A stretch of DNA of 16,731 nt, taken from Nanobdellota archaeon. Its GTDB lineage: Archaea; Nanobdellota; Nanobdellia; Parvarchaeales; Parvarchaeaceae. Where the stretch lies: assembly GCA_021818905.1 (NCBI GenBank), contig JAKASS010000018.1, forward strand, positions 1 through 16,731, given 5' to 3'. The notes below the pieces were generated by a model that ran no database searches, had not been told where the DNA came from, and saw nothing but the letters and a program-made list of their open reading frames with translations. This document shows, piece by piece, positions 307 to 12,007 of this stretch (positions are counted from its first letter, which is position 1; each line of letters begins with the position of its first letter). Position numbers and translations under genes: made by a program.

Positions 307-666
307 ATGAACATGTCAAAAAGAGCACAGGGACTTCCTATTAATACTATAATACTAATCGCAATAGGTCTGCTGATTCTTGTACTTTTCATAACTTTTG
401 TTTTAGGCGGATTCAAAGGAGTCGGTGGCGCTACAAATCCAAACGCAGCTGCGGAACAAGCATTCGCAGGTCAATGTTCTACTGCATGTTCAGAAGCAAC
501 TACGGGCGGTACTCTAGCAACGTGGTGTGCGTATCCTAATAGTTCAATAACTAATTCAGCCGGTGCGCCGTATAGTTGCGGTACCGTACCAGGTGGAACT
601 TCATCATGTACTGTCGGCGGAGTAGCTTATACGTGGACGTCCGCAAGTTGCATAGCCGATAGATAA
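307..666 (+). CDS. Type IV pilin-like secreted protein with six cysteines
   Basis: A 119-residue protein with a class III (prepilin) signal: basic residues K5 R6, then Q8-G9 followed by an uninterrupted hydrophobic helix at about residues 10-34. A prepilin peptidase would cut after G9, leaving the helix as the N-terminal pilus core. The remaining ~80 residues are Gly/Ser/Thr/Ala-rich with six cysteines (57, 61, 74, 91, 101, 115), enough for three disulfides in an extracellular head. The ATG at 307 fits the TATA spacing; a second ATG two codons later is possible. The gene is followed 14 bases later by a membrane protein gene with no clear promoter, suggesting cotranscription. Family membership is inferred from the signal peptide; the head domain is not recognised. 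Confidence 0.7.
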   Translation: MNMSKRAQGLPINTIILIAIGLLILVLFITFVLGGFKGVGGATNPNAAAEQAFAGQCSTACSEATTGGTLATWCAYPNSSITNSAGAPYSCGTVPGGTSSCTVGGVAYTWTSASCIADR

Positions 667-680
667 AATTGTTCTAAGAT

Positions 681-1304
681 ATGAACAGTTCAAAGAGTAA
701 TAACTTTGCTTTAAGCATAGCTAGTTTAATTTTTATCGTTCTAGTCGCGATTGGCGTTTTCTATGTATTCAGTAAACACATAGTTATCGTAAACGTCTGC
801 TCTGACAATAAGACACTCATAGTATTGGATTCGGGGCCTTCTTGCTTTCCGGGCGTCTCTGGCGTTATAGCCGGAGGAGTTCCTTATTTTATAAATTCTT
901 CGACTGTCGCATCCAGCGTGCAATTGACTCCATTGAGTTTTAGGTTTATCGGCGATGATCCTTTACTATATATATGGAATCAAAATATGTCGGTATCCGC
1001 ACGTCAATACGATTTTCTTACGATCCCAGACACATTTAAAGTGCATATGCAATATACATCTTCGATTCCGACAGAGTTCATGATAATGAACAGTACAGAA
1101 TTTGCACGATTTGAAACAGGGAAAGTTTATAGCTATATTAATTCTACGACTGGTGCATCAATATCCCTATGGTTTAATGAAAGTGCCGGCTGCGCAGGTT
1201 ATGTAGCAGTGATAAAATCGGTTTCCGGCGCGGCTTTCATAATACAGCCGAACGAAACAGCGTTATATGCGCCGGCATCAGAAGCTACTGGGGTCTGCGC
1301 TTAA
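681..1304 (+). CDS. Single-pass membrane protein with extracytoplasmic domain, function unknown
   Basis: A 207-residue protein with one N-terminal hydrophobic segment at about residues 8-31 preceded by a short polar stretch containing a lysine, so the long C-terminal part should face outside. The segment lacks the K/R-G cleavage signature seen in the three pilin-like proteins of this window, so it is more likely a signal anchor than a pilin. The outer domain is rich in Ser, Ile and Phe with N-x-S/T sequons (for example around residues 71-73 and 102-104) and four cysteines. Its start is 14 bases after the preceding stop with no TATA box, so it probably shares that gene's transcript. A pilus-associated or minor-subunit role is possible from context only. 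Confidence 0.55.
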   Translation: MNSSKSNNFALSIASLIFIVLVAIGVFYVFSKHIVIVNVCSDNKTLIVLDSGPSCFPGVSGVIAGGVPYFINSSTVASSVQLTPLSFRFIGDDPLLYIWNQNMSVSARQYDFLTIPDTFKVHMQYTSSIPTEFMIMNSTEFARFETGKVYSYINSTTGASISLWFNESAGCAGYVAVIKSVSGAAFIIQPNETALYAPASEATGVCA

Positions 1305-1353: not shown

Positions 1354-1971
1354 ATGGAAATGAACGTTTTTGAAGCGATAAATGAAATCAAAAAGTTCTA
1401 TGATGGCAGCGGTTCTTTGTCAAATCTCGGGGGTCTAATGTCAGCAAAAAAACTTGACGTTAGCTTGGAATACCTGGACGGCGCCGTTAAGATAAAGGCC
1501 CTGCACCCTCTAAGAATATACGCAGATGAGATATACAAAATACTGTTAAGACTTTACATGGTGAATTCTACAGAACTTACGGTCGAGTTCATAACAAACG
1601 GCAAACACAAAAGTGTATCTAAGCGGTTTGGCGCGGATGAAGACATAAAAGAAACGATAGCAGATTTACTTGAGTTACCGCATGAACAACTGCTTGATGT
1701 TATAATAGATACAGAATATTTCAAGTTAGTAGAAGTGAAAGACCTCAGCGACACGGTTTCTATCATCATGAAAAGAGGCGACCAGAAGGCGCTTTTTAGG
1801 AGCCTACTAAATTATCTTTTCCCCTTTATCAATGTTACAGTCGAAAAATACGCAAAAGAGGAGATAACGTTCAATCAACAGAACGATGAAGTAGTTGTCG
1901 ACGTAGCGCTAACGGTGGACGGCGCTTCTATAGGAGTAAAATCAAAGAAGGTAAAACTCCTCAGAGTATGA
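1354..1971 (+). CDS. Conserved-looking cytoplasmic protein of unknown function
   Basis: A 205-residue soluble protein with no signal peptide or membrane segment. It starts with an amphipathic helix (FEAINEIKKFYDGSG), followed by alternating charged and hydrophobic stretches typical of a mixed alpha/beta fold; nothing in it matches a motif I know. Its TGA overlaps the ATG of the KaiC-like gene (ATGA at 1968-1971), so the two are translationally coupled and probably work together. It has its own TATA box, so the pair 1354-2636 forms one operon. Context suggests an accessory of the KaiC/GTPase module; this is inference. Confidence 0.65.
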   Translation: MEMNVFEAINEIKKFYDGSGSLSNLGGLMSAKKLDVSLEYLDGAVKIKALHPLRIYADEIYKILLRLYMVNSTELTVEFITNGKHKSVSKRFGADEDIKETIADLLELPHEQLLDVIIDTEYFKLVEVKDLSDTVSIIMKRGDQKALFRSLLNYLFPFINVTVEKYAKEEITFNQQNDEVVVDVALTVDGASIGVKSKKVKLLRV

Positions 1972-2636
1972 CAGGCATAATGACAAGCTTCCCGTCCTTT
2001 GACACCGCAGCAGGTGGCCTAGATATGAGAAAGACATATCTTGTAACCGGCAACAAGGAAAGCGGAAAAGAGGACTTTAGTTATCGTCTTGCTGCGTCTG
2101 CACTTAATGGAAAGCTTTCTGTCGTTTATGTAACGACAAACAAATCTAATACGGACCTTTTGTCAGAGTTTACTTCTAGGAGCCTAAATGTAGCACAGTA
2201 CTTAGGCGTTAGTATGAAAATAGTCGATGACTATATAAGAAGTATATCCCCACAAGCAATAGACAACAATTATACAAAGGTTCTTAACGGCCCTCTAGAT
2301 CTTACCGGGCTTTCAGTCGCAATGTCCGCTATAAACAGCGACCTGCTAAAAGATGGAAGGACGGTAGTAAACATCTTTGATTCTATATCGTCCCTTCTTT
2401 TGTACAACAGTCCCGTAACTATGTTCAGATTCCTCCAATTTGTTTGCGGGCGTGCGAAGATGTCTGGGGTTACAACGATTTTTCTCTTAGACGAACAAAT
2501 GCACACGCCAGATGTGAATGAAAGCATTAGGTCGCTTGTAGATGGAGTAATATCACTCAAGCTAGACAATGGAAAAAGGTATTTCACCGTTTCAGGGGTC
2601 GCAAAGGAAGTGCTTGGCTGGACTCCGTTAGGTTGA
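1968..2636 (+). CDS. KaiC/RecA-superfamily protein with degenerate Walker A
   Basis: A 222-residue single-domain protein with the KaiC/ArlH-like order: an N-terminal GLDM-R-TYLVTGN entry (residues 17-29), a Walker A-like loop G28-NKES-G33-K34-E35, the strand SVVYVTT (51-57), and a Walker B-like strand TVVNIFDSISSLLLY (132-146). The usual Ser/Thr after the P-loop lysine is Glu, so Mg-ATP binding is doubtful and the protein may act as a binding platform, as proposed for ArlH-type proteins of archaeal motility systems. It overlaps the upstream orphan by 4 bases; an alternative start is M5 at 1980. The next gene carries a second, more degraded KaiC-like domain. Superfamily confidence is moderate to high; the partner and role are not known. 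Confidence 0.65.
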   Translation: MTGIMTSFPSFDTAAGGLDMRKTYLVTGNKESGKEDFSYRLAASALNGKLSVVYVTTNKSNTDLLSEFTSRSLNVAQYLGVSMKIVDDYIRSISPQAIDNNYTKVLNGPLDLTGLSVAMSAINSDLLKDGRTVVNIFDSISSLLLYNSPVTMFRFLQFVCGRAKMSGVTTIFLLDEQMHTPDVNESIRSLVDGVISLKLDNGKRYFTVSGVAKEVLGWTPLG

Positions 2637-2686: not shown

Positions 2687-3886
2687 ATGAATGATCCGAT
2701 ATTTGGCATAGGCAAGCTGGACGATGACTTAGAGGGAATCCCTTTCAAGAAAACGGTACTTCTTTCGGCATCACCAGCCGTTGGTAACGAGGTGTTTGGT
2801 TACCAAATAATCTATAATAACGTCATACACAAAAACAAGGTTTTGCTTTTCCTTAATAGGACTTCTCCGCAGGTTTACCTTACGGAGATGAAGGAATACG
2901 ATTTTAAGATATACTCGAATCTGGTAATAATAGATTCTTATAGCAACTTGACCGGCATAAAATCAACCGAGACTGCCACAAACAGGGTAATAAACAACCC
3001 TTCTGATAAGGAGGAGATAAGGAAAAAGCTTTCAGAAGAACTCGAAAAAGGCTACGACCTTGTAGTATTCGATTCTCTTTCTCTGCTTATAGACTCGTTT
3101 GATTTTGACTTTGCCGTTTCCATAGTCGATTTAGTGAAACAGACTCTCCAGAACAAAGATAGCTCGGCGGTCATGCTTTTCACGGACTGGGAATATGGCG
3201 AGAACGACATAAATAAACTTTCCAATAAAGCGAATGCACAGATTGAGATTAAAGGAATAGAAAAGAGAGTCATCTTCGGTCAATATTTCGCCGTGATAAA
3301 ATGTGATTGGGTAAAAGGAAAACAATTTTCTTCCGTTCTTTTCAAGGCTGTAAAGCCGGGGGGAATAAAAATATATTTCCCTAAAATATTGGTAACCGGC
3401 CCCACTGACGCAGGAAAGACATCCTTTATACATAGTGCTTCAAAGGATGCCGTAAGTGTAGACAGGTTGGGTGGGACAATAGCTCTTGATCACGGTAATC
3501 TAGATTTCGAGGGTTATAAGGCGGACCTGTTCGGTACACCCGGCCAGGAAAGATTTGACCCACTCCTCAGGCTTTTAGGGGGAGAAGCGATAGGCGTTAT
3601 ATTAGTAGTCGATTCTACCAAATCGGATCAATTCCCCCGCGCGGTAGAGATGTTGCGAAAGACAGAGACATACGGGTTGCCGATAGTGGTCGTTGCAAAC
3701 AAGGCAAATCTACCGGACGCGTTGCCTTTGGACGATATAAGAGAAAGACTGCACCTAGGGAAGGATGCGCCATTGTTCCAAACAGTTGCGGAAGACTTGT
3801 CACATATAGATCCAAATGAACCAACTAAACTGAAAAAAGAGGGGGTTGAAGGAGCACTTCGGGCTTTGTTTAAAGAACTTACATAA
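2687..3886 (+). CDS. Degenerate KaiC-like domain fused to a small Ras-like GTPase (COG2229/MglA type)
   Basis: A 399-residue two-domain protein. Residues 1-225 look like a KaiC/RecA domain: G7-IGKLDDDLEGIPF, then ASPAVGNEVF (28-37) where the Walker A should be, with the P-loop lysine and threonine lost, and a Walker B-like DLVVFDSLSLLID (124-136). Residues 231-399 are a small GTPase: P-loop G238-PTDAGKTS, switch I threonine near T264, switch II LFGTPGQERF (281-290) typical of the archaeal/bacterial SAR1-like COG2229 group, and ANKAN (337-341) at the G4 position, where the specificity aspartate of NKxD is Asn. The next gene encodes a roadblock/LC7 protein, the usual partner and regulator of MglA-like GTPases. 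A GTP-dependent switch acting through a pseudo-ATPase scaffold is the likely design. Family calls are firm for the GTPase and moderate for the N-terminal domain. Confidence 0.8.
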   Translation: MNDPIFGIGKLDDDLEGIPFKKTVLLSASPAVGNEVFGYQIIYNNVIHKNKVLLFLNRTSPQVYLTEMKEYDFKIYSNLVIIDSYSNLTGIKSTETATNRVINNPSDKEEIRKKLSEELEKGYDLVVFDSLSLLIDSFDFDFAVSIVDLVKQTLQNKDSSAVMLFTDWEYGENDINKLSNKANAQIEIKGIEKRVIFGQYFAVIKCDWVKGKQFSSVLFKAVKPGGIKIYFPKILVTGPTDAGKTSFIHSASKDAVSVDRLGGTIALDHGNLDFEGYKADLFGTPGQERFDPLLRLLGGEAIGVILVVDSTKSDQFPRAVEMLRKTETYGLPIVVVANKANLPDALPLDDIRERLHLGKDAPLFQTVAEDLSHIDPNEPTKLKKEGVEGALRALFKELT

Positions 3887-3917: not shown

Positions 3918-4292
3918 ATGGCTACTAAATCCGAATCATTAAGAATAGCATTAGAGAATCTCGGCAATGTTGGAGGAATAAAAGCTTCTGCAGTGATATC
4001 TGCCGATGGGCTTCCTATGGTTTCTTTAATGCCACAGGATGTAGATCCAAATAACTTCGCCGCGATGTTGGCATCTATGGTCGGTGCTGCAGAAACCGCA
4101 TTGAAATCTTTGGGGTCAAAAAATATACTCGACAGGGTCACAGCGGAATCTAGAGATATCAGGGTAGTCGCAGTAAAAGCAGGGGAAGACGCGATACTTA
4201 CTATAATGATAGACCCAACTACGAATTATGGTCTAATACTTTTGGAAGCAAAGAGAACTTCTGACCAGATAGCTAAGATAATGAAGGAGTGA
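3918..4292 (+). CDS. Roadblock/LC7 (MglB-like) domain protein
   Basis: A 124-residue single-domain protein that fits the roadblock/LC7 fold in length and pattern: an N-terminal helix (LRIALENLGNVGGI), the strand-turn ASAVISADGLPMVSL (residues 23-37), a long Ala/Met-rich central helix (FAAMLASMVGAAETAL), then strands including IRVVAVKAGEDAILTIMID and a C-terminal helix. Such proteins dimerise and bind small GTPases; MglB in bacteria is a GTPase-activating partner of MglA. Here it lies directly after a gene ending in an MglA/COG2229-like GTPase, which supports a cognate pair. The gene has its own TATA box, so its dosage can differ from the GTPase. Confident at family level; GAP activity is inferred. 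Confidence 0.8.
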   Translation: MATKSESLRIALENLGNVGGIKASAVISADGLPMVSLMPQDVDPNNFAAMLASMVGAAETALKSLGSKNILDRVTAESRDIRVVAVKAGEDAILTIMIDPTTNYGLILLEAKRTSDQIAKIMKE

Positions 4293-10898: not shown

Positions 10899-11390
10899 TT
10901 AAGTGCAACTAAAGTAGTATATGATTTTAGTTTCGCTTGTCTCCGCATATGCTGATCCGTTGATGCGTGTAGGGCCGTGCCCGGAAGATACATTAGAACA
11001 AAGAAAACCGCTCCCATTTTCGTCTACGTCATAAGCAGTATATGAATAATTGCCCGGGATATCGCTGAATGTTAGCGTTGTGGTCGCAGAGCCGGAGAGG
11101 TTTTGGCCGTTATAATCGATTGCCCACGTATACCCTCCATTCGTCGATGTGAACGGCGCACATTTGGAAGTTAAACAGGAGTATGCTATGAAGTTGGTAG
11201 TAGCAGTTCCACCTATGCCACTTGTACTGCCGCTTGCACCGCTTATCAATTTAGCGAAGTAATCAAAACCTCCTACGATGTAAGTTCTTAATGCATTTGA
11301 CAGCACTATCAATACGACTAAGGCGATCACTATTAGTATAAGAACGGTGAGGCCTAAGCTTATCGCACCGCGCTTTGAATCCAAGACCAT
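10899..11390 (-). CDS. Type IV pilin-like surface protein with an Ig-like head
   Basis: A 163-residue protein. MVLDSKRG is followed by AISLGLTVLILIVIALVV: a class III signal with predicted cleavage after G8 and a helix to about residue 31. After a Gly/Ser-rich linker (50-62) the head shows YTWAIDYNGQNLSGS...LTFSDIPGNYSYTAYDV, the W-x-(V/I)-x-x-x-G ... F ... G-x-Y-x-Y pattern of beta-sandwich domains repeated in surface proteins of acidophilic and thermophilic archaea. Cysteines at 72, 77, 131 and 162. I chose the ATG at 11390 because a TATA box lies about 26 bases upstream; an 18-residue longer start would spoil the signal peptide. Probably a pilus subunit or adhesin. Confidence 0.72.
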   Translation of the reverse strand: MVLDSKRGAISLGLTVLILIVIALVVLIVLSNALRTYIVGGFDYFAKLISGASGSTSGIGGTATTNFIAYSCLTSKCAPFTSTNGGYTWAIDYNGQNLSGSATTTLTFSDIPGNYSYTAYDVDENGSGFLCSNVSSGHGPTRINGSAYAETSETKIIYYFSCT

Positions 11391-11410
11391 AATATTGATT
11401 ATCCAACGAT

Positions 11411-11420
11411 ATATTAAAAT
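11411..11420 (-). promoter_or_regulatory. TATA box for the 11390 pilin-like gene
   Basis: Minus-strand ATTTTAATAT lies about 26 bases before the ATG at 11390 and decides that start; it sits in the short gap after the methyltransferase gene. Confidence 0.55.
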
Positions 11421-11425
11421 GCGAT

Positions 11426-12007
11426 TCATCTGTAAACTACGCAAATCGGCAACATCAACTTTTCTTTTCTGTGGAATCTAGCGGTTTTGGCCAGCGCTAT
11501 ATCTCCTAGTCGTTGCACCGAAAGTGAGTTTTTGTCGGCTATCTGCCTTATCTTTTTGTTGTCCTTATAAAGGAAGAAAAATGAATCGGAGGAGTCATTT
11601 ATTTTTTCTATGAATGCTTCTATATCGAATGTGCTCTGGAAACCGAATGGGGGATTGGATATTATAGTTTCATAGTGTTTTGTTGAATCGAACAAGTCTT
11701 TTTTGCATACATTAACCCGATTTAGACCTAATTTTTTGATGTTTTCTTGGCATATTTGTACCATCATTTCGTCTATGTCATACATATCGACAGATTTAGC
11801 GCACAGAATAGCTGCGCCTATGCCAAGTATCCCATTGCCACATCCAAAATCAGCGATCTTTTTATCCCTTATCCTATCCAAAGAATCGACGAGTAAAAGG
11901 AAATCAACCGCAGTCGATATGTCCGTTGTATATTGTTCAAGCCTTATTTTTTTATTCGGCGCATCCTCAAGTTCTTTGAGTTTAGTAGCTAATCTTATCT
12001 TATCCAT
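11426..12007 (-). CDS. METTL5-like N6-adenine RNA methyltransferase
   Basis: A 193-residue Rossmann-fold S-adenosylmethionine-dependent methyltransferase: LEQYTT (23-28) before motif I DFGCGNG (53-59), DID (77-79, acidic ribose contact), and the catalytic NPPFG (118-122), typical of N6-adenine methylation. The LEQY(P/T)T lead-in and total length match the archaeal/eukaryotic METTL5 group, which methylates small-subunit rRNA. The TTARFH/KTARFHRKEK segment (about 174-183) corresponds to the Y-K-F-H-K-K-K region near the METTL5 C-terminus. Its start overlaps the end of gatE by 8 bases, so it belongs to the gatD-gatE operon. rRNA is the likely but unproven substrate. Confidence 0.82.
   Translation of the reverse strand: MDKIRLATKLKELEDAPNKKIRLEQYTTDISTAVDFLLLVDSLDRIRDKKIADFGCGNGILGIGAAILCAKSVDMYDIDEMMVQICQENIKKLGLNRVNVCKKDLFDSTKHYETIISNPPFGFQSTFDIEAFIEKINDSSDSFFFLYKDNKKIRQIADKNSLSVQRLGDIALAKTARFHRKEKLMLPICVVYR

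Follow-up and report, generated by a model that had tools for sequence, protein, structure and literature searches.

The window, that is, the whole stretch of 16,731 nucleotides that was analysed, carries a gene for a fusion protein in which a pseudo-KaiC domain precedes an MglA-type GTPase, together with the neighbouring genes listed in Table 1. The source genome (945 kb) was estimated to be 100% complete, and the database entries of its close relatives are MAGs labelled Candidatus Parvarchaeota or Nanoarchaeota. Below, f1 denotes the window's family (Parvarchaeota-type DPANN archaea), and f24, f26, f14, f52, f93 and f12 denote other families of the class. The order in the f1 loci that were read is pilin-like, single-TM, 205 aa orphan, KaiC-like, fusion and Roadblock genes; in two genomes (G028 and G029) the first two of these were not found at the locus.

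Table 1. Features of the fusion locus, in window coordinates.
Feature	Coordinates	Strand	Basis or remark
Short protein, class III (pilin)-like N-terminus KRAQGLPINTI followed by a hydrophobic stretch	307..666	+	Syntenic in f1; by eye
Single-TM protein, same gene cluster	681..1304	+	Clustered, syntenic in f1
Orphan 205 aa protein; stop overlaps start of KaiC-like gene	1354..1971	+	Operon-conserved in f1 only
KaiC/ArlH-like protein, 222 aa, upstream, predicted partner	1968..2636	+	PF06745, E 3e-13
Fusion protein, pseudo-KaiC domain and MglA-type GTPase	2687..3886	+	399 aa plus stop
N-terminal KaiC/RecA-fold domain, residues 1-228 (about 229), degenerate active site	2687..3370	+	PF06745, VIA, HMM alignment
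Ex-Walker A loop, residues 28-35, ASPAVGNE (intact KaiC: GxPGTGKT)	2768..2791	+	Alignments
C-terminal MglA/Arf-like GTPase domain, residues 229-399	3371..3883	+	Pfam, NCBIfam and PDB sequence matches
G1 P-loop GPTDAGKT, residues 238-245	3398..3421	+	Intact in 33/33 fusions
G3 GTPGQ, residues 283-287, MglA group 2-5 type	3533..3547	+	32/33 fusions
G4 NKAN, residues 338-341 (NKxD, D to N)	3698..3709	+	Alignment
Roadblock/LC7 (MglB-like) protein, 124 aa, predicted GTPase regulator	3918..4292	+	PF03259, E 2e-12

A sequence-only reading had described the gene as a KaiC-like domain fused to a small GTPase, and Pfam, structure models and orthologues bore this out; ASPAVGNEVF, GPTDAGKTS and TPGQERF are all present in the translation. 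That reading had overlooked the degenerate KaiC-like and Roadblock genes on either side, as well as the pilus genes near the fusion in relatives. The Pfam KaiC match (PF06745, residues 7-230) scored 27.1 bits against a cut-off of 26.6, and 25.2 bits in the genome-wide search. The AlphaFold model of the fusion (24 orthologues) had a mean pLDDT of 86 and a pTM of 0.71. Compared separately, the N-terminal half of the model matched the archaeal KaiC-like protein PH0284 (2dr3) with a VIA Z of 24.8 and an rmsd of 2.4 over 215 residues, KaiC CII with Z about 24 and ArlH (4yds) with Z 21.8; Foldseek also gave KaiC-type structures. The half is therefore RecA-type, which disposes of the non-RecA fold named as the outcome that would count against the fusion claim.

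HMM alignment with PH0284 (E 3e-15) placed the GPGTGKT of that protein opposite a degenerate xxPgvene in the fusions, and its catalytic EE opposite non-acidic residues. The reported loss of the Walker A Lys and Thr was upheld by this alignment: the Lys is absent in 33 of 33 aligned fusions, and the first Gly and both catalytic Glu are gone as well, leaving neither the KaiC motif GxxxxGK[ST] nor its Glu pair. Sequence and model together thus support a predicted RecA/KaiC fold that has lost its ATPase residues. The Walker B Asp is retained in the window (FDSLS) and in most fusions, and the changed loop shows conservation of its own, as ASP[ASD]VGNE[VA]F in nearly all f1 copies and xxPxVxxxxF in most others, with P30 and F37 invariant. 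These last features would suit a domain that still binds or turns over nucleotide in some non-canonical way; with the first Gly, Lys, Thr and both Glu missing, such use is quite improbable.

The GTPase half was matched as a small GTPase at about residues 232-375 (Pfam and NCBIfam), with Pfam Arf/Roc/Ras matches at 233-367. Its nearest PDB sequences are Arf proteins (best Arf1, E 6e-13). The P-loop GPTDAGKTS and the TPGQERF motif were confirmed, and the domain appears intact as far as its motifs tell. In G3 the usual Asp is replaced by Gly (GTPGQ), a mark of MglA groups 2-5 (PMC4316618); the f14 copy is the sole exception among the 33 fusions. Next to the G2 Thr, where group 1 has Arg and groups 2-5 have Thr, a Thr is found in the f24, f26, f52 and f93 fusions (GTT), but the window's fusion and most f1 copies carry Gly (GGT). 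G4 alternates between NKxD and NKxN across lineages, with N in the window, at loci L004, L007 and L028, and in f26 and f93; the change from D to N could weaken or shift guanine specificity. The f14 fusion (L045, 1687-2718) has a degenerate GTPase (G3 GAPGDD, G4 NRVK, G1 intact), so that both halves look inactive in that copy.

Ras superfamily small GTPases are single-domain proteins, whereas a KaiC-fold domain was fused in every strong match recovered here, and a GTPase-only profile found no unfused GTPase at E 1e-12 in 371 genomes. The model has almost no linker between the halves: the last KaiC strand (226-229) is followed by the first GTPase strand at 233-237. In all comparisons against the window's fusion the GTPase half was better conserved than the KaiC half (53% and 34% identity, respectively, with the f24 fusion).

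The fusion was found in 28 of 32 f1 genomes, the window's genome included, and in five other families of the class (f24, f26 and f14, with f52 and f93 added by a phylum search). Orthologues are full-length and free of internal stops; identity is 65-94% within the genus and falls to about 40% for the copies from other families. In the tree all fusions group in a single clade (support 100/99), with a stand-alone KaiC half from f12 (G042) at its base (91/83); the loss of the P-loop may therefore predate the fusion, or f12 may have lost the GTPase. In one genome (G012) a complete fusion is accompanied by a partial copy, 81% identical, on another contig (C45 and C78), perhaps a strain mixture. In a tblastn search of plasmids no hit region reached 80% coverage of the query; the matches were confined to the GTPase half, such as Streptomyces ATP/GTP-binding proteins, several of them beside DUF742 genes. 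No fusion was found in viral contigs. A decaying gene or an assembly artefact might be suspected from the degenerate motifs of one half and from the f14 copy, in which the GTPase is degenerate too. This is refuted by the full-length orthologues, and the chance that it applies is negligible: the same fusion recurs in independent assemblies and six families, stop-free and highly conserved. The fusion is a conserved architecture, not decay or accident.

The upstream KaiC-like protein of the window is also degenerate; it keeps the Walker A Lys and has lost the following Ser/Thr (SGKE) and the catalytic EE. Such a partner, again with Lys kept and Ser/Thr gone in f1, f24, f26 and f93, adjoins the fusion at each of the 13 f1 loci that were searched, as well as in f24, f26, f93 and f14, which makes five of the six fusion families; none was seen at the f52 locus. 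These partners form their own group in the tree (87/79). Against the ArlH equivalog NF052589 the protein scored 33.9 bits (cut-off 215), and the fusion was far below the cut-off too. The 205 aa orphan was modelled with confidence (pLDDT 89) as beta hairpins that alternate with helices, and VIA listed no PDB structure reaching Z 5; weak Foldseek rows to Roadblock/Ragulator chains, with rmsd near 10, were rejected as not credible.

MglA-Roadblock pairs are classic. The Roadblock protein beside the fusion is the only one in the window's genome and carries the Asp-Gly pair (ADG) that is conserved among the Roadblock partners of MglA groups 2-5. A Roadblock gene is next to the fusion at every one of the 13 f1 loci that were searched; the same holds for f24, f26, f52 and f93. 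When 378 genomes of the class were searched, the pseudo-KaiC domain and a Roadblock were each present in 32 genomes, 31 of them shared; put by fusion, a Roadblock occurred in 31/31 fusion genomes and in 1/347 others, counts that are not independent because 28 of the 31 belong to one family. The Roadblock accompanies the GTPase half, since it is absent from G042, which has the KaiC half alone, and from the four f1 genomes without a fusion. The exception, G069, has a Roadblock without a fusion; there a PAS-like protein precedes it, and no KaiC-like match was found at that place. By family, the link is seen in f1, f24, f26, f52 and f93 and is doubtful in f14. That f14 lacks a Roadblock altogether was considered and rejected: one lies on another contig, next to a PAS-type sensor, and is of another type, with EGLP in place of the Asp-Gly pair. 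In G240 (L061, 2431-7336) three Roadblock genes in a row are accompanied by a pair of HAMP membrane proteins and a further pair of proteins with hydrophobic N-termini, an array resembling a repeated sensor-Roadblock cassette.

Type IV pilus genes lie near the fusion in two other families. In f52, pilin-like genes, a T2SSE ATPase, two T2SSF genes, the fusion and a Roadblock follow one another on one strand, as in a T4P locus. In f24, read across the joined ends of a single contig assumed to be circular, the fusion comes after pilin-like genes, with T2SSE at a distance of a few kb. A class III signal pilin is found near the f14 fusion, and the stand-alone KaiC half of f12 has a neighbour whose N-terminus, judged by eye, is of pilin type. 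Sensors are also found near fusions: f52 has HAMP proteins together with three Roadblocks, f26 has PAS proteins, and f93 has both PAS and V4R proteins. Neither a T4P ATPase nor a class III pilin was recognised at the f26 and f93 loci. T2SSE with T2SSF/TadC nearby was not found in the window; throughout f1 the genes for the T4P ATPase and TadC are located away from the fusion, and in the source genome T2SSE is on contigs C2 and C17. The short protein at the start of the cluster gave no Pfam Class_IIIsignal match. Elsewhere in the window, 10899-11444 encodes a protein with a pilin-like hydrophobic N-terminus near amidotransferase-like genes, and similar genes recur in relatives.

The reading preferred here, at a probability of about one half, is that the fusion is a GTP switch of the MglA/MglB type whose adapter, the pseudo-KaiC domain, is part of the same protein, its likeliest target being pilus-type machinery. 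The C-terminal GTPase would alternate between its GTP and GDP states, and the Roadblock of the adjacent gene would control this as GAP or co-regulator. The pseudo-KaiC domain, not handling ATP, would bind proteins and so attach the switch to its target, probably jointly with the neighbouring KaiC/ArlH-like protein; it might also be the scaffold or oligomerisation platform that the sequence-only reading proposed. Rigid passage of the nucleotide state could be envisaged, because in the model the last KaiC strand runs nearly straight into the first GTPase strand. The target would most likely be machinery related to T4P or the archaellum. In the literature, MglA-GTP stimulates assembly of the T4P machinery in Myxococcus (PMC9481161), Roadblock genes are frequent in archaeal T4P loci, where KaiC genes have been described as well (PMC4858521), and ArlH controls the ArlI motor (PMC8978795). 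Control of pilus-type machinery is thus likely given the pilus and pilin genes near the f52, f24, f14 and f12 loci, although f26, f93 and the window differ.

The same switch and adapter might instead belong to a general sensory hub, in which a membrane or PAS sensor, a Roadblock and the GTPase work together and the output is not a pilus. In actinobacterial conservons the genes for a histidine kinase, a Roadblock, a DUF742 protein and a GTPase lie together, and the Streptomyces plasmid matches beside DUF742 genes recall that arrangement, as do the HAMP, PAS and V4R sensors that adjoin the fusion in distant families. The KaiC family has moreover been proposed as general signalling hubs (PMC5847659). 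The pilus genes would then be neighbours for unrelated reasons. Against this stand the pilus or pilin genes next to the f52, f24 and f14 fusions and the protein with a pilin-type N-terminus beside the KaiC half of f12; a hub of this kind is rated a serious possibility rather than the expectation.

How the Roadblock acts admits of a variant that is compatible with the preferred switch and adapter. Ragulator is a recruiting platform for Rag GTPases, and the Roadblock here might likewise be a scaffold that recruits the GTPase, not a GAP. Wuichet and Sogaard-Andersen found the Roadblocks of groups 2-5 little conserved save for the Asp-Gly pair, with no evident catalytic residue (PMC4316618), and that pair is present in the window's Roadblock. 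The MglB of group 1 is, for its part, an established GAP, and the scaffold role is regarded as somewhat unlikely. More speculative, and unlikely as a whole, is a KaiC-type hub switched from ATP to GTP control, perhaps as a mixed ring, gating a motor of pilus or archaellum type. This is suggested because both KaiC-like proteins have lost ATPase residues and the GTPase is the sole NTPase with intact motifs; the GTPase would sit on the pseudo-KaiC domain where clock KaiC has its second ATPase domain.

Set against known systems, the switch with its pseudo-KaiC adapter has several partial counterparts. Inactivated KaiC-like domains of archaea (iKaiC) were reportedly treated by Makarova in 2017. The fusion fits the iKaiC definition, with a KaiC fold, a degenerate ATPase site and a signalling-domain partner. 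Archaeal iKaiC proteins likewise join a KaiC fold that has lost its ATPase residues to a signalling domain (Galperin, 2018; PMC5847659); unlike the fusion, the partners covered here are REC and HalOD1, neither of them a small GTPase. ArlH/FlaH, the archaellum motor regulator (PMC8978795), shares the KaiC fold, does not hydrolyse ATP and acts on a pilus-type motor; it does bind ATP, whereas the KaiC half of the fusion has no P-loop, and in the window no T2SSE/ArlI-type gene lies beside the fusion or the KaiC-like gene. MglA groups 2-5, including CvnD/CvnB of the actinobacterial conservon, share GTPGQ, an adjacent Roadblock and, in some families, sensors nearby, but are single-domain GTPases, not fused to a pseudo-KaiC domain (PMC4316618). 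The window genes scanned around the fusion gave no DUF742 or kinase match of the conservon kind.

No description of a KaiC and small GTPase fusion was found in the literature searched, in which coverage of KaiC surveys is incomplete, and the fusion is a named family in no library searched, contrary to the prospect that it would prove a common annotated one. The proposal of a new architecture calls for moderation, since iKaiC domains fused to signalling domains were already described in archaea (PMC5847659). The surface machinery of DPANN archaea is poorly understood, and the locus offers a small, conserved and testable module in these organisms (two degenerate KaiC-like proteins, one GTPase and one Roadblock), as well as an example of a dead ATPase domain retained in a role other than catalysis. 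Archaeal KaiC-type hubs and MglA/Roadblock polarity switches, which have been investigated as separate signalling systems, are brought together in it. Inactivated KaiC domains in signalling proteins and MglA-Roadblock pairs are each known; in the literature searched, the joining of such a domain to an MglA-type GTPase appears undescribed.
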